Source: an uncultured Anaerolineae bacterium
Lineage (GTDB): Bacteria; Chloroflexota; Anaerolineae; Anaerolineales; Villigracilaceae
DNA: 37,432 nt
Assembly: GCA_903908605.1 (NCBI GenBank)
Contig: CAIVSQ010000127.1
Coordinates: forward strand, 1 to 37,432
Reading direction: 5' to 3'
Both the position numbers and the translations under genes were made by a program. Of this stretch, positions 17,318 through 33,985 are shown piece after piece (position 1 is the stretch's first letter; every line of letters starts with the position of its first letter). The notes below the pieces were generated by a model, which had not been told where the DNA came from, ran no database searches, and saw nothing but the letters and a program-made list of their open reading frames with translations.

Positions 17318-18331
17318 ATGCCAAAAAAGACAGGTTCGCCCACCATTCGAGATGTAGCCCGCCTGGCAGGTGTGTCGGTAACGACCATCAGCCGGGTAAT
17401 GAATGAGCCGGATCCTCCCGTTAGTGCTGAAACGCTGGCGCGTATTCACCAGGCGATCGCGGATTTGAATTATGTGCCGCATGCCGCTGCGCGCAGTCTT
17501 TCTTCCAGCCGCAGTAATGCGATTGGCTTGTTGCTGCCGCACGTGGGTTGGGACGATTACTTCCCGCCCTTGCTGCGTGGGGTGGAGGCTGCCGCGGTGG
17601 AAAACGGTTTTGACCTGTTGATTGCTTCGCGGCGTGAAAACGGCTCGGGTGCCCGCCCGCTGGGTCCGCACAATACGGATGGGGTGGTGGTGTTTACCGA
17701 CAGCCTTTCGGATGCCGAGCTGGCGGCCTGGGTTGAGAAGAAATTCCCGGCGGTACTGCTGCACCGTACGCCACCGGCCGGGTTGGGCATTCCGCACGTG
17801 CAGTATGAGAACAAGGACGGCACGCGGGCGATGATTGACCACCTGATTGAGAAGCATGGCAAGCGGCGGATCGCTTTTTTGCGCGGGCCAGATGGCAACG
17901 AAGATTCACACTGGCGTGAGCTGGGGTACCGCCAGTCGCTTGAGGCGCACCAGATCGCGGAGGACCCGGCGCTGGTGGGGTTTGGCAATTTCAATGAAGA
18001 TGAGGCGCGTAACACAGTGGAAGACTGGTTGCGGGCCGGACTGGATTTTGACGCTGTCTTTGCCGGCGATGATGACTCTGCAGTGGGTGTGATGCAGGCT
18101 CTGCATGCGGCTGGCAAGCGCATCCCGGAGGATGTGGCGGTGGTGGGCTTTGACGATGCCCCGGTGGCGCGCTTCTGTAACCCGCCGTTGACGACGGTGC
18201 GTGCTTCGATCGCTGAAGCCGGCCAGACAGCCACGCAGATGCTGGCTGAGTTGATTACTACAGGTAAAACCCAGTTCATGGCGCTCTTGCCAACCGAGCT
18301 GGTTATTCGACGGTCATGCGGTTGCGCCTGA
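17318..18331 (+). CDS. LacI-family transcriptional regulator
   Basis: DNA-binding regulator of 337 aa, standard LacI length. The helix-turn-helix and hinge occupy residues 9-55: TIRDVARLAGVSVTTISRVM, then VPHAAARSL, the minor-groove hinge helix. The remainder is a periplasmic-binding-protein-like effector domain with VVGFDDAPVARFCNPPLTTV near residue 275 and ends in RRSCGCA. The ligand should be a sugar from the adjacent uptake locus. AAAGGAA precedes the ATG. It overlaps no gene and is followed 27 bases later by the sugar-binding lipoprotein, so regulator and binding protein are probably cotranscribed. Two operator candidates lie in its own promoter, suggesting autorepression. Confidence 0.93.
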   Translation: MPKKTGSPTIRDVARLAGVSVTTISRVMNEPDPPVSAETLARIHQAIADLNYVPHAAARSLSSSRSNAIGLLLPHVGWDDYFPPLLRGVEAAAVENGFDLLIASRRENGSGARPLGPHNTDGVVVFTDSLSDAELAAWVEKKFPAVLLHRTPPAGLGIPHVQYENKDGTRAMIDHLIEKHGKRRIAFLRGPDGNEDSHWRELGYRQSLEAHQIAEDPALVGFGNFNEDEARNTVEDWLRAGLDFDAVFAGDDDSAVGVMQALHAAGKRIPEDVAVVGFDDAPVARFCNPPLTTVRASIAEAGQTATQMLAELITTGKTQFMALLPTELVIRRSCGCA

Positions 18332-18358: not shown

Positions 18359-19825
18359 ATGAAGGAAAAAATGTTCAAACTTCTGTCCTTGCTGATGGTG
18401 GCCAGCCTGCTGCTGGCGGCCTGCGGCGCTCCCGCGCCGACTGCCGCTCCAGAGCCAACTGCCGCCCCGGCAACCGAAGCCCCGGCTCCCACTGTTGCGC
18501 CCACAGAAGCCCCGACCGAGGCCCCCACCGCCGTTCCGGCCCCCACTGAACCTGTGACCGTATCGATCATGATCGGTTTCGGTACCGGGGGTGACCCGGG
18601 CCAGGTGGAACAGCAGGATGCGATCGAGAAGAAGTTCAATGACAGCCACAAGGACATCCAGATTGACTTTGTGTATGTTAACCACGATGAGGCCCATGCC
18701 AAGTTCGCGGCGATGATCGCCAGCGACCAGGCTCCTGACATTGTCCCGGCCGGCATCGCGGGTATGAATGACTTCATCGATGAGTGGATGGACCTGGCCC
18801 CGTATATCAAGAAGGATAATTACGATACCAGCGACTATCTTGGCGCAGCGATTGACCTGGTTGCCACGCCTGGCAAGGGCACCCTGGCCTTCCCGCTCGG
18901 TGTGTACCCGACCGTGATCTATTACAATGTGGATATGTTCGATGCCGCCGGTATTGATTACCCGCCGCATAAATTCGGCGACACCAGCTGGACCTTCGAC
19001 AAGGTGACCGAAATCGCCAAGAAGCTGACCACCGATAAGAGTGGCAACAATGCCGATTCTCCCGATTTCAAATGGGAAGATACCACCCAGTGGGGTTGGG
19101 CCGGCTTTGGTGGCCAGTATCAGATGGTGGTGGAGCACTGGGGTGCTGACCCGCTTGGTTTGAGCGAAGATTACAAGACCGCTGAATACACCAACCCGTT
19201 GTGGGTTGAGGCTTCACAGTGGTACCACGATACAATTTGGACCTGGCACATTCGCCCGACCGAAGATCAGAACTCGCCTTTCGGCTGGGACACCTTCTCG
19301 GCCAACAAGTCGGCCATGCTCGAAAACTTCTCCTGGCAGAAGTGGGCCTGGGGCGACTGGCAGCAGAACTTCAAGTGGGACGTGGCGGTTGTACCGGCTG
19401 GCCCGCATGGCAACGTGGTTTCCCCCACCAATGCCAATATCTGGGCGATTCCAAAGAAAGCCAAGCACCCCGACCAGGCCTGGGAAGTCATCAAGTGGCT
19501 ATCTGAACCTGAGAATATGGATGCGATGTGCAAGATCTATGGCTGTATCCCGGTGCGCAAGTCAGTGGCCTCCAACTGGGTGACTGCCCGCTCGGCGGAA
19601 TACCCGGGTGTCGACTTCCAGGTCTTCATCGACTCGATCGAGTACCTGGATGCCAACCCGAACCTGGAATCCTGGATGCCGAGCTGGGGCGAAGTGTACG
19701 ATGCCACCAACCAGTTCGATGTCGGCCAGCAGACCGGTGAAGTGAAGAACGTGGAAGAAAGTTTGAACCAACTCAATACCAAGGTCCAGGCCATCCTGGA
19801 TACGTACTGGGCGAACCACAAGTAG
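18359..19825 (+). CDS. Sugar ABC transporter substrate-binding lipoprotein
   Basis: Family 1 extracellular solute-binding protein of 488 aa. The signal peptide ends in a lipobox (LLLAAC, acylated C22). A Pro/Thr/Ala/Glu-rich linker spans residues 23-62, followed by the two-lobed binding fold starting VTVSIMIGFGTGGDPGQVEQ. Later motifs such as IPKKAKHPDQAWEVIKWL belong to the MalE/UgpB-like group. AAGGAGAAG just upstream of the ATG gives a strong ribosome site. Position directly behind the LacI gene suggests it serves the regulated sugar. Its cognate permeases are not adjacent; the second permease pair at 30360-32125 is the best candidate because the first pair has its own large binding protein. 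Confidence 0.93.
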   Translation: MKEKMFKLLSLLMVASLLLAACGAPAPTAAPEPTAAPATEAPAPTVAPTEAPTEAPTAVPAPTEPVTVSIMIGFGTGGDPGQVEQQDAIEKKFNDSHKDIQIDFVYVNHDEAHAKFAAMIASDQAPDIVPAGIAGMNDFIDEWMDLAPYIKKDNYDTSDYLGAAIDLVATPGKGTLAFPLGVYPTVIYYNVDMFDAAGIDYPPHKFGDTSWTFDKVTEIAKKLTTDKSGNNADSPDFKWEDTTQWGWAGFGGQYQMVVEHWGADPLGLSEDYKTAEYTNPLWVEASQWYHDTIWTWHIRPTEDQNSPFGWDTFSANKSAMLENFSWQKWAWGDWQQNFKWDVAVVPAGPHGNVVSPTNANIWAIPKKAKHPDQAWEVIKWLSEPENMDAMCKIYGCIPVRKSVASNWVTARSAEYPGVDFQVFIDSIEYLDANPNLESWMPSWGEVYDATNQFDVGQQTGEVKNVEESLNQLNTKVQAILDTYWANHK

Positions 19826-19837
19826 TTAATTAATCCA

Positions 19838-19868
19838 TAGTAGGGGCGCGCAAGTCGCGCCCCTACTA
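19838..19868 (+). terminator. Hairpin after the binding-protein gene
   Basis: A 13-bp perfect stem, TAGTAGGGGCGCG / CGCGCCCCTACTA, with loop CAAGT. The tail (TTCTGTTTT) is only partly T-rich, so it may attenuate rather than stop transcription and may protect the lipoprotein mRNA 3' end. Confidence 0.6.
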
Positions 19869-19878
19869 TTCTGTTTTA

Positions 19879-19887
19879 TGGCAAAAT
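19879..19887 (+). promoter_or_regulatory. Candidate extended -10 of the GDPD gene
   Basis: TG-G-CAAAAT ends seven bases before the ATG at 19895, placing the transcription start on the start codon. It resembles the arrangement at 3754-3766. It would give the downstream import locus its own promoter. Confidence 0.35.
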
Positions 19888-19894
19888 GTACGCT

Positions 19895-20644
19895 ATGCTA
19901 ACCAAACTTACCCGACCCTATATTTTTGCCCATCGCGGCGCATCGGCGCATGCCCCCGAGAACACCCTGGCGGCTTTTGAGCTGGCTTTCAGGCAGGGTG
20001 CCCAGGCGATTGAATTTGACGTCAAACTGACGGCTGACCGGCAGGTGATTATTCACCACGACCGCACGCTGGAGCGTACCACCAACGGCAGTGGCCCGGT
20101 GGCGGAGCACACGCTGGCAGAGCTGCGCGCACTGGATGCGGGCGGCTGGTTTTCGGAGCAGTCCCGCGGGGAGAAAATCCCAACGCTGGAAGAAGTCTTT
20201 GAGGCGCTGGGCGGGAAGATTTTTATGAATGTGGAATTGACCAATTATGCCACCCCTGGCGATGGCCTGGTGGATGAGGTTGCGCAGGTGGTTAAGCGGC
20301 AGCGCATGGAAGAAGGGATCATGTTTTCCTCTTTTTCGGCTGCCAATCTGGCGCGAGCCAGGCGCTTGCTGCCGGGGGTGGCCTGTGGCTACCTGCTGGA
20401 TGGCGGTGCGCCCTGGCGAAAACGGCTGGAGGGCAGCTTCATCCGCATGGAGGCTGAGCATCCGTGGATGGAAGATGCAACCGCCGCGGCGGTGGAGAAG
20501 GCTCACCGGCGTGGTCGCCGCATGCATGTCTGGACGGTTAACGAGGCAGCCGAGATGCGCCGCCTGCGTTCGATTGGTGTGGATGGCATTTTTACCGATG
20601 ATCCGCCCCTTGGGCTGGATGTGTTTGTGAATGGGCATGGTTAG
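19895..20644 (+). CDS. Glycerophosphodiester phosphodiesterase (GDPD)
   Basis: TIM-barrel phosphodiesterase of 249 aa. The GDPD catalytic set is intact: HRGAS with H13 and R14, PENT with E22, IEFDV with metal ligands E40 and D42, and IHHD with H55. Late motifs HVWTVNEAAEMRRLRSIGVDGIFTDDP close the barrel. There is no signal peptide, so it acts in the cytoplasm, releasing an alcohol from glycerol-3-phosphate diesters. Starts at 19886 and 19895 are both ATG; I prefer 19895 because 19886 overlaps a -10-like element and no Shine-Dalgarno precedes either. Ends seven bases before the large binding protein. Similar GDPD genes often accompany ugp-type sugar transporters. Confidence 0.9.
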   Translation: MLTKLTRPYIFAHRGASAHAPENTLAAFELAFRQGAQAIEFDVKLTADRQVIIHHDRTLERTTNGSGPVAEHTLAELRALDAGGWFSEQSRGEKIPTLEEVFEALGGKIFMNVELTNYATPGDGLVDEVAQVVKRQRMEEGIMFSSFSAANLARARRLLPGVACGYLLDGGAPWRKRLEGSFIRMEAEHPWMEDATAAAVEKAHRRGRRMHVWTVNEAAEMRRLRSIGVDGIFTDDPPLGLDVFVNGHG

Positions 20645-20650
20645 TTGACG

Positions 20651-23533
20651 ATGAAAATATCCCCCCGCTGGGCCAGGTTTGCGCCGTATGCCATCTTGCT
20701 GCTGGCATTTTTTGTTGTTGCCGGGCAGACGGGTCAAGCGGCGGCGCGGGTGCAGGCGGATGCAAACCTGCCTGAGCCGTATTACGCGCAAGTGCTGGCG
20801 GGATACCTGGCGCAAGGCTATCAGTCGCCGCCCGGGGTGGAGATCACCCAGGCAGGTGGCGATTTTTCGGCCAAGGCGGATGTGGATGTGAGTGTGACGG
20901 CCGATAAGGCGCTGACATGGAACGAAGCGGACCAGCTAGGCTGGGTGGAGTGGGCCTTTGATGTGCCGGCCGATGGGCTTTACAACCTGGGCATGGAATA
21001 CACCCCGCTGGCGGGCAAGGGCGCTTCGATTCAACGTGACATGCGCATTGACGGGCAGTATCCGTTTATGGAAGCGCGGCGCCTGGCTTTTGAGCGCAAC
21101 TGGGTGGATGCCAACCCGCCCAGGCAGGATAACCAGGGCAATGACATTCGCCCGTCGCAGGTGGAAGCCCCGGGTGGGCGCTTTCAGCTGTTTGAAGATG
21201 CGCAGGCCATGTACCGTGCGCCCTACCTGTTTTATTTTAGCGCGGGCAGGCATGTGGTGCGGCTGGGGCTGATACGCGAGCCAGTGTTGATCACACGCAT
21301 AAGCCTGCTCTCGCCACCAAGCGTGCCGACGTATGCAGAGCTGCAGGCGGTCTACCAGGCGCGTGGTTATGCCGAGACCAGCGGGCAGCGCGTGGTGATC
21401 GAAGCGGAAAATGCAATCAGCAAGTCCGCGCCGACCCTGACCTCCAATTACAGCCCCAGCCCGGCTGCCAACCCGCAGGCCTGGGGTAACTTTCGGCTGA
21501 ATGTGTTTGGTGGGTATCGCTGGCAGAGACCAGGTGAACTGGTGCGTTGGCGTTTGCAGGTGCCGCAGGATGGGTTGTACAAAATTGGGCTCAAGCTGTG
21601 GCAGGGGGATGAATCGCGCAAACCGAGTTACCGTGCCCTGGAGATTGACGGGTTGGTGCCGTTTGAGGAGATGCGCGAGGTGGCCTTTCCATACGAGTTG
21701 AACTGGCGCACCCAGACACTGTCTGATCCATCCGGAAAGCCCTACCTGTTTTACCTGACGGCCGGCGAGCACACGCTCAGCATGCGGGCGGTGGTGGGTC
21801 CGGCGGCCGAGACGGTGCGGGCGGTGGAAGAGGTGACCCGCAACCTGGCCGAGATGTCGCGGCGGGTGATCTTGCTGACCGGTTCGCAGCCTGACCCGCA
21901 GATGGAATGGGACATGCGCAAGGAAATCCCGGACCTGGTGCCAGGCTTGATCGCAGCCGCGCAGACCCTGGAGGGCGAAGTGGCCCGGCTGACGGTGATG
22001 GGCGGTGGGCGGCTGCCGAACACCGCCAATACGCTGGTGGAGATCGCCGCGCAGTTGCGCGATATGGCCAATCATCCCAACACGGTGCCCAACCGACTGA
22101 CGCAGTTGGGTGAGACCCAATCCATCCTGGGCTTTTGGGGCCTGGAGATTCAGAACGGGCAGTTGGAAGTGGACAGCCTGATTGTGGCTTCAGCGGATGT
22201 GCCCATGCCGCCGGGTCGGGCGGGCTTTTGGGAAAACCTGCAATTATCCTTATATAACTTTTTCTCGTCTTTTCGTAAAAATTACAACACGGTCGGCAAT
22301 GTGTATGACAGCAAGACCAATAAAGACGCGGTGGTGCTGGATGTGTGGATGGCGCGCGGACAGGAATGGGGCGAAATCCTGAAGGTGCTGATTGAGGAAG
22401 ATTTCACCCCCAAAACGGGTGTGCTGGTGAACCTGCACACCGTTCCGCCTGGTTCGCTCGGCTCGGGGGATATGTCGGTGCTGCTGCTGGCGGCAACGGC
22501 CGGCGAAGCGCCGGATGTGGCCATGTCGGTCAACCCCAACCTGCCGGTGGAGTTCGCCATCCGCGGAGCGCTGGTGCCGCTTAACCAGTTTGGGGATTTC
22601 TCGACGGTTGAGCCGCGTTTCCCGCAGGGGGCGTTGGTGCCGTACCAATATGACGGCGGTACCTATGCCGTCCCGGAGACACAAAATTTCAACATGATGT
22701 TTTACCGCAGCGATATCCTCGATTCGCTCGGTCTAAAACCACCGCAGACCTGGGATGAGGTCCATGACCTGATCTGGGTGCTGCAGCAAAACGGGATGGA
22801 GTTTTATTACCCACCCGGCGCGGATGGGCTGACGCCCTTCCTGTTCCAGGCGGGCGGTGAGTACTACAGTGCGGATGGGATGCGCTCGGCGATGGACAGC
22901 CCGCAGGCGCTGAACGCCTTCAAGTCCTGGACGGACCTGTACACCAATTACCGCGTGCCGCAGTTTGGGAACTTCTTTAACCGCTTCAAGACCGGCGAGA
23001 TGCCGATTGGGATCTCGGATTATTCCACCTACATTCTGCTTTCGACGGCGGCGCGTGAATTGAACGGGCGCTGGGCGATGGCACCCATCCCGGGCACGGC
23101 CCAGGCGGATGGCAGCATCAATCGCGCGGCGGGGGGTTCTGGCGATGCAGTGGTGGTCTTTCAACAGTCGCAGCACCAGCGCGAGGCCTGGGAATTTGTC
23201 AAGTGGTGGACCAGCGCCGCGGTGCAGCGCCGCTATGCGGTGGAGCTGGAAGCCTTGCTGGGTGTGGAGGCGCGCTGGAATACGGCCAATGTGGAGGCTT
23301 TGAACAGCCTGGCCTGGCCGCGTGCGGATATCAAGGCTGTTTTGGAACAGTGGCGTTGGTTACAGCAGCGCCCGGTGGTACTGGGCGGCTATTTTACCGC
23401 CCGGCATGTGGAGAATGCCTGGAACCGGGTGGTGCTGCAAGGGACCAACCCGCTCGAGGCGCTGGATGACGCGCTGCGGGAAATCAACCGTGAACTGCGC
23501 AAGAAGCAGGAGGAATTCAATGTCGGGCAGTGA
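20651..23533 (+). CDS. Large substrate-binding protein with two N-terminal modules
   Basis: A 960-aa exported protein, twice the usual binding-protein length. Residues 1-35 are a signal peptide without a lipobox. Two related beta-rich modules follow (about 40-225 and 235-390). Both share an LYNLG/LYKIG strand, a basic stretch, IDGxxPFxEMR or IDGxxPFMEAR, a Phe-Pro/Glu-Asn-Trp segment, PYLFY-x-AG-x-H and a closing strand, so they arose by duplication. They look like CBM6/CBM35-type carbohydrate-binding modules. A helical linker (about 395-520) leads to a family 1 solute-binding fold (about 550-950, with DSLGLKPPQTWDEVHDL and REAWEFVKWW). ATG 20651 is preferred over a TTG at 20645. The permease gene overlaps its 3' end by 14 bases. 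Confidence 0.88.
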   Translation: MKISPRWARFAPYAILLLAFFVVAGQTGQAAARVQADANLPEPYYAQVLAGYLAQGYQSPPGVEITQAGGDFSAKADVDVSVTADKALTWNEADQLGWVEWAFDVPADGLYNLGMEYTPLAGKGASIQRDMRIDGQYPFMEARRLAFERNWVDANPPRQDNQGNDIRPSQVEAPGGRFQLFEDAQAMYRAPYLFYFSAGRHVVRLGLIREPVLITRISLLSPPSVPTYAELQAVYQARGYAETSGQRVVIEAENAISKSAPTLTSNYSPSPAANPQAWGNFRLNVFGGYRWQRPGELVRWRLQVPQDGLYKIGLKLWQGDESRKPSYRALEIDGLVPFEEMREVAFPYELNWRTQTLSDPSGKPYLFYLTAGEHTLSMRAVVGPAAETVRAVEEVTRNLAEMSRRVILLTGSQPDPQMEWDMRKEIPDLVPGLIAAAQTLEGEVARLTVMGGGRLPNTANTLVEIAAQLRDMANHPNTVPNRLTQLGETQSILGFWGLEIQNGQLEVDSLIVASADVPMPPGRAGFWENLQLSLYNFFSSFRKNYNTVGNVYDSKTNKDAVVLDVWMARGQEWGEILKVLIEEDFTPKTGVLVNLHTVPPGSLGSGDMSVLLLAATAGEAPDVAMSVNPNLPVEFAIRGALVPLNQFGDFSTVEPRFPQGALVPYQYDGGTYAVPETQNFNMMFYRSDILDSLGLKPPQTWDEVHDLIWVLQQNGMEFYYPPGADGLTPFLFQAGGEYYSADGMRSAMDSPQALNAFKSWTDLYTNYRVPQFGNFFNRFKTGEMPIGISDYSTYILLSTAARELNGRWAMAPIPGTAQADGSINRAAGGSGDAVVVFQQSQHQREAWEFVKWWTSAAVQRRYAVELEALLGVEARWNTANVEALNSLAWPRADIKAVLEQWRWLQQRPVVLGGYFTARHVENAWNRVVLQGTNPLEALDDALREINRELRKKQEEFNVGQ

Positions 23534-24464
23534 ACCTTTATCGACCCTGGCGCCCGCCCGGCCCGCTTCGCGCTGGACGGCGGTGAAACAGGCCTGGCGG
23601 CAGTATCACACCATGTACCTGTTCATGCTGCCGTTTTTCATCCTGTTCCTGATCTTTGTGGTTGCGCCGGTGCTGACGGCCGCCTACTTGAGCTTTACCT
23701 ATTACAACATGCTGCAGCCGCCGCGCTGGATTGGGCTCTCGAATTACCGGCTGCTGTTTGTGGAAGATGATATTTTCATCACCGCCATTCAAAACACGCT
23801 GGCGTTTGCGTTGATTACCGGGCCGGTTAGCTACGCGCTGTCTTTTACGCTGGCCTGGTTTATCAACCGCGTCAAGCTGCGACAGGTGTACACGCTGGCT
23901 TTCTACGCCCCATCGATCACCAGTGGGATCGCCATGTCGGTGATCTGGCTGTATTTCTTTGCCAACGACCGCTATGGCTTGTTGAATTATCTGGTGATGA
24001 ACATTGGCCTGATCCGCGAGCCGGTTGCCTGGTTGAAGGAGCAGTCGACCATCCTGCCGGTGATCATGATCATTTCACTGTGGATGAGCCTGGGCACCAG
24101 TTTCCTGGTCTTCCTGGCCGGGCTGCAGGATGTGCCGCGTGAGCTGTACGACGCTGGCGCGGTGGATGGGGTCGGCAACCCGTTCCAGGAGGTCTGGTAC
24201 ATCACCCTGCCGGTGATGCGCCCGCAGCTGCTGTTTGGGGCGGTGATGGCGATTGTCAGTTCGTTTTCGGTGTTTGGGATCGCCGTGCAGGTGGCCGGGC
24301 TGCCCAGCCCACTGTACGCCGGGCACACGATCGTGGCACACCTGTATGATTATGGCTTTATCCGCTTTGAGATGGGCTATGCCTCGGCCATCGCGGTGGT
24401 GTTGTTCATCGCCACTTTTGTGCTTTCGCGCTGGGTGATGCGCATCCTGGGAGATTCGGAATGA
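23520..24464 (+). CDS. Sugar ABC permease, MalF/UgpA type (pair 1)
   Basis: Membrane permease of 314 aa with six hydrophobic helices. The EAA loop that contacts the ATPase reads LYDAGAVDGVGNPFQEVWYI, preceded by DVPRE. The frame is open upstream, but the ATG at 23520 has a textbook AGGAGGAATTC ribosome site inside the 3' end of the binding-protein gene, giving a 14-base overlap and coupled translation. It should form a heterodimer with the permease at 24511. No ATPase gene lies in the cluster, so energising depends on a shared MsmX/UgpC-type ATPase elsewhere in the genome (known for this importer class in other bacteria). Confidence 0.93.
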   Translation: MSGSEPLSTLAPARPASRWTAVKQAWRQYHTMYLFMLPFFILFLIFVVAPVLTAAYLSFTYYNMLQPPRWIGLSNYRLLFVEDDIFITAIQNTLAFALITGPVSYALSFTLAWFINRVKLRQVYTLAFYAPSITSGIAMSVIWLYFFANDRYGLLNYLVMNIGLIREPVAWLKEQSTILPVIMIISLWMSLGTSFLVFLAGLQDVPRELYDAGAVDGVGNPFQEVWYITLPVMRPQLLFGAVMAIVSSFSVFGIAVQVAGLPSPLYAGHTIVAHLYDYGFIRFEMGYASAIAVVLFIATFVLSRWVMRILGDSE

Positions 24465-24514
24465 AAAACAAGCGGGCGAGTGGTTTCATGTTGAAAGAGA
24501 AGGCCAGCCGATGA
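24461..24514 (+). CDS. Possible 17-codon bridging ORF
   Basis: MKNKRASGFMLKEKASR, whose ATG overlaps the stop of the first permease (ATGA) and whose stop overlaps the ATG of the second (ATGA). It would carry ribosomes across the otherwise 46-base gap between the two permeases. It may be only a coupling device, not a functional peptide. Confidence 0.3.
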   Translation: MKNKRASGFMLKEKASR

Positions 24515-25380
24515 AAATCCCGAGGATATTGCGGCGCAGGCGCTTTGAGGCCGGGCTTCCCACCTATATTGGCCTGACTCTGCTGGGCGGCTTTATGATT
24601 CTGCCGCTGGTCTACATGGTTTCGACGGCCTTTAAGCCGCTGGAAGAGATGTTCCTCTACCCGCCACGCTTTTTTGTGCGCACGCCCACCCTGCAAAACT
24701 TTAATGAGCTGTTGGTGGCGCTCAACGGCCTGTACGTGCCATTTTCGCGTTACTTTTTCAACAGCCTGTTCGTGACGATCTGCGTGACGGGTGGGACGGT
24801 GATCATCTCGAGTATGGCGGCCTACCCGCTGGCCAAGTACCCGCGCATGCCCGGGGCGAAGTTGTTTTTCAATATCGTAATTGCCACACTGATGTTTGCA
24901 CCCGAGGTGACGCAGATACCGCGCTACCTGATCGTCAACCAGCTAAACCTGGTGGATACCTACGCCGGGCTGATTCTGCCGATGCTGGCGGGGTCTTACG
25001 GCATGTTCCTGATGAAGCAGTTCATGGAGCAGCTGCCGGTGGAGGTGATTGAGGCCGCCAAGGTGGATGGAGCTTCGGAGTGGACGATTTTTTGGAAAAT
25101 TGTCATGCCGCTCGTGCGCCCGGCCTGGATTACGCTGATCCTGCTGTCTTTTATTGGCACATGGAACGATTACTTTACTCCGCTGGTCTTTACCCGTTCA
25201 GAGCAGATGAAGACCCTGCCGCTGGTGCTGAGCACGTTGGGCGGCGGACCTGGCTCGGTGGCGCGCACCGGTGCGGTGGCGGCCGCCAGCCTGATCGTGA
25301 CCCTGCCGACACTGATCTTGTTCCTGTTCCTACAGAAGTATGTCATGGAAACCATGGCACATTCAGGGATTAAGGGTTGA
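24511..25380 (+). CDS. Sugar ABC permease, MalG/UgpE type (pair 1)
   Basis: Permease of 289 aa with six hydrophobic helices, standard for MalG-like proteins. The EAA loop is EVIEAAKVDGASEWTIFWKI near residue 180, followed by VMPLVRPAW. The conserved GTWNDYFTPL lies near residue 210. Partner of the preceding permease. The ribosome site is weak (AGAGAAGG about ten bases upstream), and a 17-codon frame runs from the preceding stop to this start, so re-initiation may set its level. Two bases after its stop the NHL-TPR-YIP1 gene begins. Confidence 0.93.
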   Translation: MKIPRILRRRRFEAGLPTYIGLTLLGGFMILPLVYMVSTAFKPLEEMFLYPPRFFVRTPTLQNFNELLVALNGLYVPFSRYFFNSLFVTICVTGGTVIISSMAAYPLAKYPRMPGAKLFFNIVIATLMFAPEVTQIPRYLIVNQLNLVDTYAGLILPMLAGSYGMFLMKQFMEQLPVEVIEAAKVDGASEWTIFWKIVMPLVRPAWITLILLSFIGTWNDYFTPLVFTRSEQMKTLPLVLSTLGGGPGSVARTGAVAAASLIVTLPTLILFLFLQKYVMETMAHSGIKG

Positions 25381-25381
25381 T

Positions 25382-27400: not shown

Positions 27401-29657
27401 TTATCCCTGCAGGCAGACGGGTGTGCGCCTGCGTGGGCGCGTGTATTTAATGCTGGGTGCAGCCGTGCTGCTGTTGGTGTTAAGCGCCTGTGCTGGCGCG
27501 GGCAGCTCGCTGGCGGTGCCGCAAGAAGTGGCGCCGCTGCTCAACCCGGCCCTGGGAGCCCTGCCGGAAGCAGCTGTCAGCTGGCCGGTGATGAAGCGGC
27601 CGGACGGGATCCCGCCGGAGTACCAGGCAGCGGCCGAGAGTGAAGAGCTGCAGCTGTTCATCAACCCGAAGAATGCGGCCATCCTGCTGTTTGACAAGCG
27701 CAGCGGCTACACCTGGAGCAGCGTTCCGCTGGATGCCAGCACGAACAAAAAGCTGGCCGGGGTCTGGAAGCGCCGCAGCCCGATCCCACTGGTGGTGGAA
27801 TATACCAGCAGCGACCGTTCGGCCGTCAAGGCTGTGCGGCCCGAGGATATGCAGTTGACGGTCAGCCCGCTGCAGAATGGGGCCAGGGTGGAGGTGGTTG
27901 CCGCCAACAACGGGCTGGCGCTTAATCTGCTGTTTACTGTGAGCAATGACCGCCTTGAAGTGACCATTCCGGAAGCCTCGGTGCAGGAGAGCGGTGAAAA
28001 TGGCTTTGTTTCAGTGCAGGTGCTGCCATTTTTTGGAGCCATGCCAGACAGCCAGGCGGGATATATCTTTTACCCGGATGGGGCTGGCATGCTGGTGCGT
28101 TTTGATACTCCGCATCGCAACGAGGTGCAGGAGACTTCGCGCCCGGTTTACGGCAATGACCTGCTTGATCCGCCGACCAACAGGCCGGTGATCTTTACGC
28201 GCCAACCGATTGTCATGCCGGTTTTTGGGTTGACCACCGGCGCAGATGCCTTTGTGGGGATCGTTACGCACGGCGATTTTGACGCCAGCATCTCGATGGC
28301 GCGCAGTGGTGAAGGCATGCCCTACAACCGCAGCTGGGCTGAGTTTGTTTATCGCCGGCAGGGAATGTTCTCGCTGAATGGTGAGCAGCCGGTGATCCTT
28401 TACGAGCCCGGGCGGGTGGGCGGTGACCGGCAAATTCGCTACATGTTTTTCAACGCCTGCGCAGCGCCCTGCCAGGGGCAGGTGGGTTATGCCGATATGG
28501 CGGCCCGCTACCGCGACTACCTGCTGGAGCGAGGGGCCGGGCGGGTGAAGACCGATGCGCCGCTGATGAACTTGCGTCTTTTTATGGGCATCGAGCAGCG
28601 AACCTGGTTCCTGCGTGATTTTATTGGCATGACCAGTTTTGGAGAGGCGCAGGCCATGTTGGATACGCTGGCGGGTGAGGGCGTCGATCGGCTGGATGTG
28701 ACCCTGGAAGGCTGGAACAACGGCGGTGCAAAGTCTCACTATCCACAGCGATTGCCGGTGGAGGCTGAGCTGGGCGGTGAGGACGGGTTGCGCGCGCTGG
28801 CAGATAGCCTGCATGCGCGCGGGCAGCGCTTGTTCTTGCACGATAATTACCTGGATATTTTGCCCGGGTCAACCGGGGCTTTCCCGATCATGGACGCAGT
28901 GCGCGGGGTGGATGGTCTGCCGGTGGGTGATGGCGAGGCGGGTTATTACCTCAACCCGCAGGTGGCGCTGCGCCAGTTTGCCGCCCACGATATGGCCAGC
29001 ATGGCGAAGCTGGGCGCGGACGGGTTGTATTTGCAGGATTTCGCCGCGATTGCCGTGCCGGATGGTAACCTGCGCTACCCGCTCAGCCGTGAGAATTTCG
29101 CCGCCACCTGGATACAAATTGCCGGACTTTCCAGTTCGGCGTTGGGCAACGCTGCGTTGGGGGGTGGCAACCTGTATGCATTGAACCATGCCGCGCGGTT
29201 GGAGAATGTGCCGCTCGAGAGTACCGGCTATGACCTGAGCAATGAGTCTGTGCCGTTTTACCAGATGGCTGTGCATGGCCTGGTGCAGTACAGCGGCGAG
29301 GTGATTAACCTGGGCAGCGATGCGCGCCGGTCTTTCCTGCGGCATGTGGAGTACGGCGCCATGCCGGTCTTTGCACTGACCTGGAACGATACGGCCCTGC
29401 TGTACCGCACGAATGCCAATGCACTGTGGACCGGGCAGTTTTCGACCTGGAAGGATGAAATGGTGCGTGATTACCTGTCCCTGCTGCCGCTGCAGGCTGT
29501 GCAAGGCCAATTTATGAGCGGGCATGAAAAGCTGGCCGAGGGTGTTTTTGAAACCCGTTATGATTCGGGTGCGCGGGTGATCGTGAATTACAACGATAAT
29601 CCGTATGTGGCCGGATCGATCAGTGTGCCGGCCAACGATTTTATTGTGGTGCCTTAA
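27384..29657 (+). CDS. DUF5696-like lipoprotein, glycosidase-like barrel
   Basis: Surface lipoprotein of 757 aa: signal peptide with lipobox (LVLSAC, acylated C36). The first ~330 residues resemble a beta-sandwich (INPKNAAILLFDKRSGYTW at the start). From about residue 390 the pattern is that of a (beta/alpha)8 barrel of retaining-glycosidase type: NLRLFMGIE, LDVTLEGWNNGG with D438 and E442, FLHDNYLD with D487, and LYLQDFA with D552. I place it in DUF5696 from memory of that family's N-terminal motif; no function is established that I know of. Acidic residues at strand ends make a glycoside hydrolase role plausible. The ATG overlaps the preceding gene by 17 bases, with TTGGAGA upstream. Confidence 0.75.
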   Translation: MFAGSNYPCRQTGVRLRGRVYLMLGAAVLLLVLSACAGAGSSLAVPQEVAPLLNPALGALPEAAVSWPVMKRPDGIPPEYQAAAESEELQLFINPKNAAILLFDKRSGYTWSSVPLDASTNKKLAGVWKRRSPIPLVVEYTSSDRSAVKAVRPEDMQLTVSPLQNGARVEVVAANNGLALNLLFTVSNDRLEVTIPEASVQESGENGFVSVQVLPFFGAMPDSQAGYIFYPDGAGMLVRFDTPHRNEVQETSRPVYGNDLLDPPTNRPVIFTRQPIVMPVFGLTTGADAFVGIVTHGDFDASISMARSGEGMPYNRSWAEFVYRRQGMFSLNGEQPVILYEPGRVGGDRQIRYMFFNACAAPCQGQVGYADMAARYRDYLLERGAGRVKTDAPLMNLRLFMGIEQRTWFLRDFIGMTSFGEAQAMLDTLAGEGVDRLDVTLEGWNNGGAKSHYPQRLPVEAELGGEDGLRALADSLHARGQRLFLHDNYLDILPGSTGAFPIMDAVRGVDGLPVGDGEAGYYLNPQVALRQFAAHDMASMAKLGADGLYLQDFAAIAVPDGNLRYPLSRENFAATWIQIAGLSSSALGNAALGGGNLYALNHAARLENVPLESTGYDLSNESVPFYQMAVHGLVQYSGEVINLGSDARRSFLRHVEYGAMPVFALTWNDTALLYRTNANALWTGQFSTWKDEMVRDYLSLLPLQAVQGQFMSGHEKLAEGVFETRYDSGARVIVNYNDNPYVAGSISVPANDFIVVP

Positions 29658-29718
29658 TTGACAGGGTTGTGCCAGGTGTGGATGTGTGATGATTGCCAGC
29701 AGTAAGGATGCCGCCACA

Positions 29719-30294
29719 ATGATGGTCAAAAGAGGATTTCTATTTGCAATCCTGGCTGGCTTTGTGCTGGTGCTGGTGGGCTGGGGCCTGTATCCGCAGA
29801 TCAGCCTGCTCGGTGTGGTTGGTGTGAGCCTGGTTTTGTTGGCTTATGCAGCCGCTGGTTATGTTGGATTTGCGCGGATTGAACCCGGTTTGCTCAGGCT
29901 GGCGAGTGTTTTTGGCCTGTTTTTTCTCTCGGCCCTGCTGGTGACGGCCCGCGGCAAGAGCATCAAAAATGGTCTGGGCGTGGCGGTGATGACGGCCATG
30001 CTCAGTGCGGTGGCCTGGTTGGTTTGTGTGCTGCTGGTCTTTTACCTGTTCCGGGGCAGCCCCCGGCAGGCACTGGTTTTTGCGGCCGAAGGCAATTTGG
30101 AAGATTTCGCCCGCAGTGGGATGAGCGATTTCAATACCTTCATGATGGAAGATTTTTTGGGGGCAGGGTTCTTTCACCTGCTGCTGGCCCCGCTGGTTGC
30201 AGTCTTGTTCGGCACGCTGGGCGGTTTGGCTGGCAAGGGTTCCTGGTGGATCCGAAATCGGCGCAGCGTTAATAACGGTAGCAACGAGGGCTAA
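29719..30294 (+). CDS. Small polytopic membrane protein (YIP1-like?)
   Basis: About 191 aa with five hydrophobic segments (FLFAILAGFVLVLVGWG; GVVGVSLVLLAYAAAG; LASVFGLFFLSALLV; AMLSAVAWLVCVLLVFY; LLLAPLVAVLFGTLGGLAG) and one long extramembrane loop before the last helix. No conserved catalytic motif is seen, so a structural or accessory role is likely. AAGGA lies ten bases before ATG 29719, which I prefer; the frame also opens at GTG 29686. It lies between the DUF5696-like gene and the second permease pair, all read in the same direction, hence probably part of the same transporter-associated module. Resemblance to the C-terminal part of the preceding YIP1-like protein is only general. Confidence 0.7.
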   Translation: MMVKRGFLFAILAGFVLVLVGWGLYPQISLLGVVGVSLVLLAYAAAGYVGFARIEPGLLRLASVFGLFFLSALLVTARGKSIKNGLGVAVMTAMLSAVAWLVCVLLVFYLFRGSPRQALVFAAEGNLEDFARSGMSDFNTFMMEDFLGAGFFHLLLAPLVAVLFGTLGGLAGKGSWWIRNRRSVNNGSNEG

Positions 30295-30359
30295 CCCATG
30301 CCATGCCGCTCGTGTGTTTATTGTCGTTTCGGTAAGAATAAGCCCGTACCCGGATTGTA

Positions 30360-31235
30360 GTGGAAAAAAACATGCGCCTGACACTTCGACAAAGACAAGC
30401 TCTTTCTGGTTATTCCTTCATCGCCATCTGGTTGGTGGGGATCAGTGTTTTCCTGATGTATCCCCTGATTCGCAACCTGCTGTGGAGTTTTACGGATGCC
30501 GCCCTGAACAAAAACATCGATCACCCCAACTTCATTGGGGTGGCCAATTACGTGGAAGCCTTTGTGATCGATGCAAAATTTGTCCCGCTGCTGCTGCAGA
30601 CCCTTCGCAACCTGCTGGTGGATACGCCGATCATCCTGTTGTTTTCGCTGGCGGTGGCGATCCTTTCGGAGCAGAAGGTGCGCGGACAGGGCTTCTTTCG
30701 GGCGATCTTCTTCCTGCCGGTGGTGATCGGCTCGGCGGAGGTGGTTGGGCGGTTGTTCCAGATACAGGGCAACCAGCTGACGCTGTTCCAGGGCGAGCAG
30801 ATCAACACCTTCCTGCATATCTTCCTGGGCGCTAACACAGCGACATTTTTGGAGTTTGTCAATCGGATTGTGTTTGTGCTGTGGCGCTCGGGCGTGCAAA
30901 TTATGATTTTTATTGCCGGGCTGAAGGGCATTGACCCGGTCTTGTATGAAGCGGCCCAGATGGATGGGGCCACGCCCTGGGTGCGGTTTTGGAAGGTAAC
31001 CCTGCCGATGCTGACCCCGGTCTTGATCATTAATGTGGTCTATACGATCATCGATTCATTTACCGATTACTTTAACGCTGTGATGGGCTACATTCGCGAT
31101 GTGACCTTTGTTTCGCAGCTGCGCTTTGGCTACCCCTCGGCGCTGGGCAATATTTATTTCATCATCATCTTCGCGATCGTGATCAGCATCTTTTTGGTGC
31201 TGAACCGGCGCGCCTATTATGGAGGTGAGCGATGA
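30360..31235 (+). CDS. Sugar ABC permease, MalF/UgpA type (pair 2)
   Basis: Permease of 291 aa with six hydrophobic helices. The EAA loop is LYEAAQMDGATPWVRFWKVT followed by LPMLTPVL. The first helix reads GYSFIAIWLVGISVFLMYPL. Starts are GTG at 30360 or ATG at 30372; neither has a strong ribosome site (GGAAAA before the ATG). Its partner gene overlaps its stop by ATGA at 31232. Together they form a second permease pair of the locus, different in sequence from pair 1. Its binding protein is probably the lipoprotein at 18359, since no other unpaired one is present in the window. Confidence 0.92.
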   Translation: MEKNMRLTLRQRQALSGYSFIAIWLVGISVFLMYPLIRNLLWSFTDAALNKNIDHPNFIGVANYVEAFVIDAKFVPLLLQTLRNLLVDTPIILLFSLAVAILSEQKVRGQGFFRAIFFLPVVIGSAEVVGRLFQIQGNQLTLFQGEQINTFLHIFLGANTATFLEFVNRIVFVLWRSGVQIMIFIAGLKGIDPVLYEAAQMDGATPWVRFWKVTLPMLTPVLIINVVYTIIDSFTDYFNAVMGYIRDVTFVSQLRFGYPSALGNIYFIIIFAIVISIFLVLNRRAYYGGER

Positions 31236-32125
31236 ACCTGCTGCGAACTCTGCTGGATGGACAGCGCCTGAAGCGTGCGTTTTACCAACTGGTGACCTTT
31301 GTGCTGCTGCTGGATGTGGCTTTTATCTTCCTGCTGCCGCTGCTCAGGCTGGCTTCGACCGCCATGATGAGCCCAACCGACCAGCACGACCCGACGGTGG
31401 TCTGGCTGCCGCATGAGATCCACATCGAGAATTTTGTGCGTGCCATCGCCGCGTTGGATTACTGGCAGGCGCTGAGGAACACGATGCTGGTGGCGTTGGC
31501 TGCCGCCGCGCTGCAGACCATCTCGGCGGCGGTGGTGGGTTATGGTTTTGCGCGTTTGAAGTTCCCAGGGCGCGATGCGCTTTTTGGGTTGGTGCTGTTC
31601 AGCCTGATTGTGCCACCGCAAACGATCATCATCCAGCTGTTTGTGCTGTATGGCAAGCTGGACTGGTTGGATGGCTACCTGCCGTTCCTGGTGCCTTCGG
31701 CGATGGGCATGGGGCTGCGCGGGGCGTTGTTTATCTTCATATTCAGGCAATTCTTTAAGGGCATGCCTTATGAGCTGGAGGATGCTGCCTACATCGATGG
31801 GGCCAGCCCGCTGCGGGTCTTTTTGAGCATCATGCTGCCGCTGGCCCAGCCGGCCATCCTGGTGGTGTTCTTGTTTTCGTTTGTCTGGCATTGGAACGAT
31901 AATTTTGAGCCTTCGATTTACCTGACCAACCCGGATAAGTTCTTCCTGCCTCAGCACCTGAACAACCTGGAGGCGATGATGCGCGCCCTGCACATGCTGC
32001 TGACCGGCAATACGGGCGCGATTATGGCGGCGTCGCTGCTGACCTTCCTGCCGCTGCTGGTGATCTACCTGTTTGCCCGCCGCTATTTCGTCGAATCGAT
32101 CGAACGTACCGGCCTGGTGGGGTAG
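31232..32125 (+). CDS. Sugar ABC permease, MalG/UgpE type (pair 2)
   Basis: Permease of 297 aa with six hydrophobic helices. The EAA loop reads ELEDAAYIDGASPLRVFLSI followed by MLPLAQPA. The conserved WHWNDNFEPSIYL lies near residue 220. ATGA overlap with the preceding permease and a GGAGGTGAG site seven bases upstream indicate coupled translation in equal amounts. The next gene begins five bases after its stop. As with pair 1, no nucleotide-binding subunit is encoded nearby. Confidence 0.93.
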   Translation: MNLLRTLLDGQRLKRAFYQLVTFVLLLDVAFIFLLPLLRLASTAMMSPTDQHDPTVVWLPHEIHIENFVRAIAALDYWQALRNTMLVALAAAALQTISAAVVGYGFARLKFPGRDALFGLVLFSLIVPPQTIIIQLFVLYGKLDWLDGYLPFLVPSAMGMGLRGALFIFIFRQFFKGMPYELEDAAYIDGASPLRVFLSIMLPLAQPAILVVFLFSFVWHWNDNFEPSIYLTNPDKFFLPQHLNNLEAMMRALHMLLTGNTGAIMAASLLTFLPLLVIYLFARRYFVESIERTGLVG

Positions 32126-32130
32126 CGCCT

Positions 32131-33336
32131 TTGCGAGCCCTGGCGCGTACCCTGACGCTGCTGGCCTGCGGGCTATTGTTTGCCTGCCAGGTGCCCGCCA
32201 GCCAGTCCACCCCGCTTCCAACCACTGCCAGGTCAATTAGCATGCCAACCAACCCTCCAAGCCCCATGCCCACCCAGGCGCCAAGCCCATACCAGATTGA
32301 GATTATTGTCCGGACGGCTGAAAATTTTCACAGCCGTGAGGATATCAGCGCTTTCGTGGCGATGGCGGCCCGGCACCAGGTAAAGGTGATCAGCGTGTTG
32401 GTCAAACAGGACGAGGATGGCTTTATCTCCTCCGGGCAGGTCTTTTATCGCAGCAAGATTGCGCCGATTGCGCCTGGTTATATGAGGCTGGATGTGCTGC
32501 AGGTGATGCTGGAGGAAGCGCACGCGCGCGGCATACAGGTGCGGGCGTGGATGCCACAATTCCACGACCAGGTGGCGGCGCGCCAGCACCCGGAATGGCA
32601 GATGATGGCGCTACGCGATGGGCAGGTGCGCGCGTTTAGCGGCTCGGGGAATGAGGAGTATTTTGTGAACCCGCTCAACCCCGATGTTCAGCAGTACGAG
32701 CTTGGGTTGATCCGTGAGGTGGTCGAAAATTACGCGGTGGATGGCATTATGCTGGATTGGCTGCGTTTTGACGATTTCAACATGGATATGGGCGAGAGTA
32801 CGCGGGCTGCTTTTAAGGCCAAGACCGGTATCGACCCGCTGGAGATTGACCTTGCCAGCGAAAACCCGGCGCGGGCCGCCTGGAACGAGTTTCGCACGGA
32901 TGGGATTGGAGCTTATGCGCGGGCGGTGCGTGCCAGCCTGCCAAAGGGCATGCTGCTGGGGGTGTATATTTTGCCGCCCGAGTTTATTGAGTGCGGGCAG
33001 GACGCGGCAAAATTTAATAACCAGGTGGATTTCATCTCGCCGATGTGCTATAACCGCGATTGGGGCTTCCCGCTGGATTGGATTTGGGGCAGCTGCCTGC
33101 AAACGACGCGCCAGAAAGCCGGACCGGCCGCTGTGCTGCCGACATTGGAGATTGGCACGCGCACCACGCTTTCGGCCAGTGGGACGAGCGTGCCCAACCT
33201 GGGTGACGAACATTTTCACCAGATTTTGACCCATTTGCGGTATGATTACCCCCAGATAACGCGCCTATCGTGGTTTTTTCACGAGAGTTGGACCGAAGAA
33301 CTGCTTCAGCGCATCGAAATCATCAGTTCATGGTAA
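32131..33336 (+). CDS. GHL10-type glycosidase-like lipoprotein
   Basis: Exported lipoprotein of 401 aa: TTG start, short signal peptide ending LLFAC (C19), then a Pro/Ser/Thr linker to about residue 52. The rest is a TIM-barrel of the glycosyl-hydrolase-like GHL10 group: AHARGIQVRAWMP near 132, YAVDGIMLDWLRFDDF with D204 and D209, and FISPMCYNRDW near 305. These match the family's sugar-binding barrel positions. Starting at a later ATG (32242) would remove the signal peptide, so the TTG is preferred. Five bases separate it from the second permease pair, so it probably processes the glycan outside the membrane before import. Confidence 0.82.
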   Translation: MRALARTLTLLACGLLFACQVPASQSTPLPTTARSISMPTNPPSPMPTQAPSPYQIEIIVRTAENFHSREDISAFVAMAARHQVKVISVLVKQDEDGFISSGQVFYRSKIAPIAPGYMRLDVLQVMLEEAHARGIQVRAWMPQFHDQVAARQHPEWQMMALRDGQVRAFSGSGNEEYFVNPLNPDVQQYELGLIREVVENYAVDGIMLDWLRFDDFNMDMGESTRAAFKAKTGIDPLEIDLASENPARAAWNEFRTDGIGAYARAVRASLPKGMLLGVYILPPEFIECGQDAAKFNNQVDFISPMCYNRDWGFPLDWIWGSCLQTTRQKAGPAAVLPTLEIGTRTTLSASGTSVPNLGDEHFHQILTHLRYDYPQITRLSWFFHESWTEELLQRIEIISSW

Positions 33337-33349
33337 GGAAAGGGAAACC

Positions 33350-33985
33350 ATGCTTATTCACGCTAACAGCAAGCTGCTTTTTATTGGCGATTCGATTACG
33401 GATTGCGGACGTGAACGTCCATTTGGCGAGGGTGGGGGGCTTGGTAATGGGTATGTCAGCCTGGTGAATGCGCTTTTATGGGCGGCCCAGCCCGAAAACC
33501 CGGTGCGGGTGGTCAACGTGGGCACCAGCGGCAACACGGTGCGAGACCTGGACGAGCGCTGGCAGAAGGATGTGCTGGCTCAAAACCCGGACTGGCTGGC
33601 CATTATGATCGGGATCAACGATGTCTGGCGGCAGTTTGATGGGCCGCTGCAGAAGGAGTGGCATGTCTCCTTGGAGGAGTACGCCACCACCCTGGAGCGT
33701 TTGATACAGAACACGCGCCCGAGCCTGATGGGGCTGGTGCTGATGACGCCCTTTTTTATTGAACCAAATAAATCGGACCCGATGCGGGCGATGATGGATG
33801 AATATGGTGCCGTGGTGAAGCGCCTGGCTACCAAATACCAGGCGGTCTTTGTGGATACGCAGGCGGCTTTTGATGTGGTGCTGCAGCACAGCCACGCAAT
33901 GGGGATTGCCTGGGACCGGGTGCATCCTTTCTTGCCGGGGCACATGGTGATTGCCAGGGCTTTTGTACAGGCGATTGAGGCGTAG
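33350..33985 (+). CDS. SGNH/GDSL-family hydrolase (esterase)
   Basis: SGNH hydrolase of 211 aa. All four blocks are present: block I FIGDSITD with nucleophile S15, block II GTSGNT with N62, block III GIND with N90, and block V WDRVHP with catalytic D189 and H192. No signal peptide, so it is cytoplasmic. Many carbohydrate loci of this kind contain such an enzyme to remove acyl or acetyl groups from imported sugars, which fits its place at the end of the import operon, 13 bases behind the glycosidase-like gene. AAGGAAAGGGAA lies just upstream of the ATG. The hairpin that follows the stop ends the unit. Confidence 0.92.
   Translation: MLIHANSKLLFIGDSITDCGRERPFGEGGGLGNGYVSLVNALLWAAQPENPVRVVNVGTSGNTVRDLDERWQKDVLAQNPDWLAIMIGINDVWRQFDGPLQKEWHVSLEEYATTLERLIQNTRPSLMGLVLMTPFFIEPNKSDPMRAMMDEYGAVVKRLATKYQAVFVDTQAAFDVVLQHSHAMGIAWDRVHPFLPGHMVIARAFVQAIEA

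Follow-up and report, generated by a model that had tools for sequence, protein, structure and literature searches.

The window, a 37,432-nucleotide contig (CAIVSQ010000127.1) of an uncultured Anaerolineae bacterium, contains an unusual copy of a gene cassette that is genuine and conserved in many bacteria. The cassette is a variant of the CUT1 sugar importers that has apparently not been described before. Its core consists of seven genes, arranged in the window as SBPfus–PermF1–PermG1–NHL-TPR-YIP1–DUF5696–(small membrane protein)–PermF2–PermG2, in which two permease pairs accompany a fused solute-binding protein (SBPfus), an NHL-TPR-YIP1 membrane protein (NHLYIP) and a DUF5696 protein. We think it fairly probable that this core is an ATP-binding cassette (ABC) importer for oligosaccharides cut from polysaccharides, with the parts working as proposed below. 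Because the DUF5696 and NHL-TPR-YIP1 proteins are kept in the same order in many different bacteria, they are probably working parts of this sugar-uptake machine. An earlier note on the window had described one large locus and suggested that its three accessory proteins are integral to the importer. The conserved core agrees with this description, but the locus as drawn mixes core and local extras, because the genes for GDPD, GHL10, SGNH and the small membrane protein are not recurrent. NHL-TPR-YIP1 and DUF5696 keep their place between the permease pairs across phyla, whereas the small membrane protein was matched (E ≤ 0.01) in only 5 of 249 genomes of the class, window included.

The 249 class genomes were searched with NHL-TPR-YIP1. 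Some match occurred in 236 of them, mostly to the NHL repeats alone, and 22 loci in 20 genomes gave a full match, defined as covering most of the protein or running up to a contig end. One of the 22 is the window itself, 20 others were fetched and the locus of genome G072 was left out (L, G and C denote loci, genomes and contigs; the window is C127 of a 5.77 Mb genome in 612 contigs). In 11 of the 20 fetched class loci the order SBPfus-PermF1-PermG1-NHLYIP-DUF5696-PermF2-PermG2 was found; of the remainder, L031 has the two blocks swapped, L032 holds half a cassette, and seven are truncated at the ends of their contigs. A further set, the best 80 loci, came from scanning genome contigs with the NHL-TPR-YIP1 profile and was thus selected by NHL-YIP1. 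They come chiefly from Paenibacillus, Lachnospiraceae and other Clostridia, and also from Caldicoprobacter, Halanaerobiales, Dictyoglomus, Izimaplasma and Chloroflexota. The earlier note had set beforehand, as its neighbourhood check, whether the accessory genes stand beside permeases in other genomes as well. They are syntenic with them elsewhere: all seven genes lie in order on one strand in 71 of the 80 loci (70, plus one trailed by a further permease pair), and the other nine comprise seven partial loci at contig ends, the swapped L082 and the irregular L081.

The linkage holds when counted from DUF5696. All 20 DUF5696 matches at E < 1e-130 in the class genomes adjoin an NHL-YIP1 match, as judged from coordinates compared by eye; the remaining DUF5696 matches are partial barrel matches. 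In 29 genomes chosen for holding a cassette, every listed full-length DUF5696 copy was counted, and 117 of 117 had a same-strand NHL-YIP1 match at most 2.5 kb upstream. Six fragment rows were left out of this count, two in G571 and four at two G591 loci, where they adjoin the two listed NHLYIP genes that have no full-length DUF5696 partner. The genome of Paenibacillus mendelii (G577; L069, L166-L181) has 16 full-length DUF5696 genes, each in a cassette, and that of P. eucommiae (G571) has 13 together with two fragment matches. Twenty loci were fetched from two Paenibacillus genomes, 16 of 16 from G577 (L170 being the same as L069) and 4 of the 13 full-length ones from the genome of L061. All seven families were in order in 19 of the 20; no PermF2 call was made in L183, the PermF1 gene of L179 is split in two, and L177 contains an inserted gene. 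The idea that the genes are neighbours by chance was rejected on the 71/80 order, the 20/20 and 117/117 linkage and the 16 cassettes in one genome.

By their sequences, the seven genes travel, duplicate and diverge as one unit. For every pairing among the seven genes, the pairwise distances over 111 cassettes were correlated at 0.80-0.94, and 14 paralogous cassettes within one genome, where species relatedness is excluded as a factor, gave 0.82-0.94. PermF1 and PermF2 were reciprocally monophyletic, and so were PermG1 and PermG2 (111 sequences each; supports 0.88 and 0.96); on these trees the two permease pairs are separate old lineages. In the concatenated tree the window copy belongs to a clade of ten cassettes from its own phylum (support 1.0). 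Seven Bacillota cassettes adjoin this clade (support 0.995 for all seventeen), and the beta-1,2-glucan clade lies apart from it. NHL-TPR and YIP1 occupy two open reading frames (ORFs) in 22 of the 80 loci and share a single ORF in 58, of which one is truncated at a contig end; such a fusion suggests joint working. In one of the trees, the L062 cassette, from a record titled Bacillus subtilis DE0224, pairs as sister with the Lederbergia L060 cassette, which could reflect a misnamed record or a transfer of the cassette.

All four permeases of the window are BPD_transp_1 proteins with an EAA loop (Pfam, alignment). The EAA-loop glycine is present in 98-100% of the F1, G1, F2 and G2 proteins (122-129 sequences each), counted by alignment columns; these counts replaced a narrower EAA pattern, which had given 37/129, 103/131, 78/124 and 93/124, respectively. 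The NCBIfam matches were to UgpA/UgpE, GlcT/GlcU and MalF/MalG, all below cut-off. There is no MalK-type ATPase among the ORFs of the window, as had been stated, but this does not extend to the system: a MalK/UgpC-type ATPase gene lies directly upstream of SBPfus in 34 of the 99 distinct loci with room for it (35 of 100 before removal of the duplicate L069/L170). Its representative, from L060, contains Pfam ABC_tran, TOBE_2 and OB_MalK. The search for an MsmX/UgpC-type ATPase that the earlier note had recommended yielded four MalK-OB-domain matches elsewhere in the window's genome, three of them on one contig and two above cut-off. According to the available text of one paper, it is established for type I importers that an importer lacking an ATPase gene of its own can rely on a shared ATPase (PMC7658222).

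The AlphaFold model of SBPfus (pLDDT 90.9) comprises a signal peptide, two beta-sandwiches (residues ~46-226 and ~249-383), a helical bundle and a C-terminal solute-binding domain. The best sequence match in the PDB was Lin1841 (E 3e-17, C-terminal part). The 50 listed Foldseek matches span ~400-440 columns, the size of a solute-binding domain, and none runs over the whole chain. DUF5696 scored 496 bits against PF18952 with a Pfam gathering cut-off of 25.6. Its model (pLDDT 86.9) has the beta-sandwich and TIM-barrel of glycoside hydrolase (GH) family 129 and GH129-like enzymes, to which it also gave a profile match; Foldseek aligned it with DagB (5opq, E 2e-34) and NagBb (5wzn, E 1e-29) over ~700 columns at 14-17% identity. 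In the part of the paper available, Asp435 of NagBb corresponds to the nucleophile Asp486 of DagB (PMC5698469). When the nucleophile and acid/base positions were placed on DUF5696 from alignment and model, the GH129 catalytic pair was not conserved in 128 DUF5696 proteins: the end of strand 5, where the acid/base is expected, is N in 107 and an acid in 2. Conserved among the same 128 are D232 (D/E in 125), D560 (D in 109) and E656 (E/D in 127). We read DUF5696 as a GH129-like barrel that would bind glycans.

The NHL-TPR-YIP1 protein of the window matched Pfam NHL and weak TPR repeats. Pfam Yip1 had no match in this protein itself and was found at E ≤ 0.01 in 15 of the 16 members of the family alignment to which it belongs. 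Because a lipobox-like motif is rare in SBPfus and DUF5696, most of these proteins seem to need some other retention at the membrane, and NHL-TPR-YIP1 is a candidate for holding them there.

Substrates were approached through annotation of chosen representatives of neighbour clusters within ~10 kb. In the class loci, the gene that separates PermG2 from LacI encodes, in the representative scanned, a Pfam Glycoamylase protein whose closest match is XCC2207 (8xul) and which also resembles the endo-beta-1,2-glucanase 5gzh, and a downstream GH35 gene is most like the beta-1,2-glucosyltransferase 7vkw. Clusters for the glucanase, GH94 and GH35 occur in 12, 12 and 9 of the 20 fetched class loci; another enzyme may be concealed by an opposite-strand ORF in L036 and L046. 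The glucanase profile also matches 9 of the best 80 contig loci. These GH144, GH94 and GH35 neighbours resemble known beta-1,2-glucan proteins. A second copy in the window's own genome (L044, contig C88) has GH144 and GH35, and its contig ends before the expected place of GH94. Two loci of the same phylum, L157 and L158, have SBP1 (a separate solute-binding protein), the cassette, GH144-LacI-GH144 and GH35, with GH94 in L157 as well. Chy400_4164, a beta-1,2-glucanase of Chloroflexus aurantiacus, is used in the available part of one paper (PMC12102758); its identity with the cassette-adjacent gene could not be confirmed. Other copies of the cassette stand among xylan or rhamnoside enzymes: the Bacillota neighbour representatives include GH10, GH43, GH67, GH51, GH78, GH106, GH3, GH38 and a sulfatase, next to binding proteins, oxidoreductases, regulators and unmatched proteins. 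Because the neighbouring enzymes differ between loci, the core is not tied to a single sugar, and as far as gene content tells the cassette is a general importer core with exchangeable enzymes. Its putative role as a glycan importer rests on family membership and on these neighbours. Beside one Paenibacillus cassette (L077:18000-19352) lies a luciferase-like monooxygenase gene, whose cluster has 11 genes in 4 loci.

The proposed mechanism starts with secreted SBPfus, whose two beta-sandwich domains would hold a glycan chain while its solute-binding domain would feed PermF1/G1. The DUF5696 barrel, lacking the GH129 catalytic pair, would bind or trim the chain beside SBPfus. NHL-TPR-YIP1 would sit in the membrane with propeller and TPR outside and hold SBPfus and DUF5696 at both permease pairs. 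PermF2/G2 would import another product, delivered by a separate binding protein (SBP1, for example), and one multitask ATPase, for the window copy encoded elsewhere, would drive both pairs. Local enzymes would set the substrate, which for a typical copy of the window's class would be beta-1,2-glucan. We infer the physical integration of the accessory proteins with the permeases. A stronger form of the proposal is more tentative, and we hold it somewhat doubtful: one physical machine, in which an NHL-TPR-YIP1 membrane scaffold holds together two ABC importers, a binding protein that grips the chain and a pseudo-enzyme of GH129 fold, would be the counterpart of the Bacteroidetes Sus systems in mostly single-membrane bacteria, amplified up to 16-fold in one genome.

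Several observations weigh against the proposed importer. Correlated distances would result from co-inheritance by itself. In L032 (G206:C8) there is only NHLYIP-DUF5696-PermF2-PermG2, and SBPfus-F1-G1 was not found in the 20 kb fetched; because of this half cassette, the swapped L031 and L082 and the irregular L081, the core consists of at least two modules. No ATPase gene lies directly upstream of SBPfus in 65 of the 99 loci. The lipobox-like motif was seen in 11 of 126 SBPfus and 17 of 131 DUF5696 proteins with a simple pattern on the longest ORFs, the starts of which may be too early. DUF5696 might be catalytic, because 80 of the 128 proteins, including that of the window, carry an acidic residue at the end of strand 4, either on the aligned nucleophile position or adjacent to it. 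Finally, GH144, GH94 and GH35 profiles matched no window ORF of at least 60 residues, and the window copy is without every enzyme that would identify a substrate. The half cassette L032 is adjoined by a solute-binding protein with a signal like that of twin-arginine translocation (TAT) and by a GH127-like protein.

The modular loci L031, L082 and L032, together with the separate solute-binding protein genes beside many cassettes, could be explained by a pair of independent importers within a single operon. One, SBPfus-F1-G1, and the other, F2-G2 with a second binding protein, would then take different products, and NHL-YIP1 and DUF5696 would have separate jobs and touch neither transporter. 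We regard this as unlikely, although worth keeping in mind, since such an arrangement does not need the pairs to be kept with NHLYIP and DUF5696 between them, as they are in 71 of 80 loci and in all 16 copies that one genome carries. A low probability also goes to DUF5696 as an active GH129/GH101-superfamily alpha-glycosidase of the retaining type, which would remove an alpha-linked decoration from each incoming glycan before import. The fold match to 5opq and 5wzn over nearly the whole chain, the conserved D232, D560 and E656 and the acid near the nucleophile position would suit an enzyme, but not the asparagine that predominates at the presumed acid/base position, and a protein that accompanies beta-1,2-glucan, xylan and rhamnoside enzymes is a poor fit to a single specificity. 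NHL-TPR-YIP1 might instead be a sensor reporting extracellular glycan binding to gene regulation rather than a transport part. Histidine kinase and response regulator genes do represent two neighbour clusters, each in nine of the 80 loci, but the regulators vary by locus (LacI, AraC, two-component), NHLYIP stands among the permeases in 71 of 80, and Pfam detected no signalling domain in the window protein or the family alignment, which makes a sensor improbable.

Two further proposals concern the substrate of the window copy. A specificity for peptidoglycan or amino-sugar fragments is hinted at by SBP1, whose nearest solved chains are UspC (E 8e-18), and by the GHL10 protein, with a weak PDB match to Cwp19 (E 3e-6); UspC and Cwp19 have roles in amino-sugar and cell-wall processes. 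Moreover, L144:3789-6182, just beyond a cassette, encodes AnmK (anhydro-N-acetylmuramic acid kinase) fused to a serine beta-lactamase-family domain, and a D-Ala-D-Ala carboxypeptidase gene lies beside L154. All these matches are weak or single, however; AnmK occurs in 10 of 19 cassette genomes and adjoins the cassette only in G434, and no AnmK gene was found in the window's genome, which is 91% complete. We consider this specificity very unlikely, and give equally little chance to the import of glucans substituted with phosphoglycerol and acyl groups, from which cytoplasmic GDPD and SGNH would strip the substituents. Such substituents can occur on glucans, GDPD and SGNH have no transmembrane (TM) segment by hydropathy, and SBPfus is nearest in sequence to Lin1841, a beta-1,2-glucooligosaccharide binder. 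Against it stand a hairpin between the SBP1 and GDPD genes, the lack of a GDPD gene beside any other fetched cassette, and the literature, where no such locus was among the matches listed.

The genes of the window are collected in the table below. The co-directional run from LacI (17318) to SGNH (33985) stands, but the 'fourteen or so' genes of the earlier note are 13, of which 12 lie within its interval 18359-33985, preceded by LacI (17318-18331). They are spaced by -17 to +65 bases. The domain calls held up in Pfam for LacI, two SBP_bac_1 proteins, four permeases, GDPD, NHL/TPR, DUF5696, GHL10 and SGNH, and for YIP1 through the family alignment.

Features of the window (forward-strand positions; E, E-value)
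Feature	Position	Strand	Evidence and remarks
LacI-family regulator	17318..18331	+	Pfam LacI and Peripla_BP_3
SBP1, lipoprotein-like solute-binding protein	18359..19825	+	Pfam SBP_bac_1, E 1e-29; lipobox-like N-terminus read from sequence
14-pair hairpin followed by U-rich tail (terminator/attenuator candidate)	19837..19869	+	z -5.4
GDPD, local extra	19886..20644	+	Pfam GDPD, E 5e-54; zero TM segments by hydropathy
SBPfus, core gene 1	20645..23533	+	Pfam SBP_bac_1 on 573-861; fusion of 962 residues
PermF1 permease, core gene 2	23520..24464	+	ATG at 23520; Pfam BPD_transp_1; EAA loop
PermG1 permease, core gene 3	24511..25380	+	Pfam BPD_transp_1; EAA loop
NHL-TPR-YIP1 membrane protein, core gene 4	25382..27400	+	start by homology; longest ORF from 25340
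DUF5696 lipoprotein-like protein, GH129-like fold, core gene 5	27384..29657	+	Pfam, E 2e-148; PDB profile match; AlphaFold and Foldseek
Small membrane protein, five TM segments (hydropathy), peculiar to window copy	29686..30294	+	
PermF2 permease, core gene 6	30360..31235	+	Pfam BPD_transp_1; EAA loop; tree
PermG2 permease, core gene 7	31232..32125	+	Pfam BPD_transp_1; EAA loop; tree
GHL10/DUF4015 lipoprotein-like protein, local extra	32131..33336	+	Pfam, E 6e-18
SGNH/GDSL hydrolase, local extra	33350..33985	+	Pfam, E 1e-24; no TM segment by hydropathy

PermF1 probably starts at its ATG downstream of a ribosome-binding-like sequence, and NHL-TPR-YIP1 probably at the position in the table, which matches the start of its relatives. 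Because of the hairpin with its U-rich tail, which has one copy genome-wide, transcription may be ended or lowered between SBP1 and GDPD. Twelve of the 20 fetched class loci have LacI genes close to the cassette. An SGNH homologue was found 3' of one related cassette alone (L149), and GHL10 gave weak matches at L136 and L178 alone among the fetched cassettes; the small membrane protein, GDPD, GHL10 and SGNH were rejected as core parts because they are not recurrent partners. Twenty proteins scanned in the regions flanking the window's nearest relatives consisted mostly of housekeeping, regulatory and unmatched ones and pointed to no clear substrate. Outside the run, a short ORF at 35849-36640 encodes a receiver domain preceded by a histidine-kinase ATPase domain and lacks the N-terminal part usual for kinases, and a YdjC-like protein (Pfam) is encoded on the opposite strand upstream of LacI (15349-16194, minus strand).

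The view of the earlier note that the system is undescribed agrees with the open-access literature, in which no description was found. 'DUF5696' and 'PF18952' are named in none of 5.39 million open papers, a search that would miss closed papers and descriptions by locus tag only, and the matches listed for YIP1 with permease or NHL include no such locus. With the cassette, DUF5696 and a YIP1 protein that had no place become fixed parts of a widespread putative glycan importer. A neighbourhood rule follows: the adjoining substrate enzymes could serve to label the copies in Paenibacillus or Lachnospiraceae. The proposal also makes testable how large glycans are retained at the membrane by a binding protein that mostly seems to be without a lipid anchor.

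Like CUT1-type importers (MalFGK/UgpABCE), the cassette has SBP_bac_1 proteins, two in the window, BPD_transp_1 pairs with the EAA loop and, in relatives, a MalK-type ATPase. Unlike them, it has two fixed permease pairs and a solute-binding protein that carries two additional domains by fusion, and NHL-TPR-YIP1 and DUF5696 are constant partners. Sharing of an MsmX-type multitask ATPase would suit the window importer, which has no ATPase gene of its own; its use by the cassette is presumed. DUF5696 resembles GH129 NagBb and the GH129-like DagB in profile and in near-full-length fold, and differs from both in its low identity and its unconserved catalytic pair. For beta-1,2-glucan the closest systems are the Lin1841 locus of Listeria innocua and the IaSGT cluster of Ignavibacterium album, which in the available text of their descriptions contain an ABC transporter with a sugar-binding subunit (PMC8861115, PMC12369401). 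The C-terminus of SBPfus is nearest to Lin1841, and GH144, GH94 and GH35 stand beside a typical class cassette. In contrast to the cassette, the Lin1841 and IaSGT descriptions mention neither DUF5696 nor NHL-YIP1 in the parts available, and the window copy is without their enzymes.

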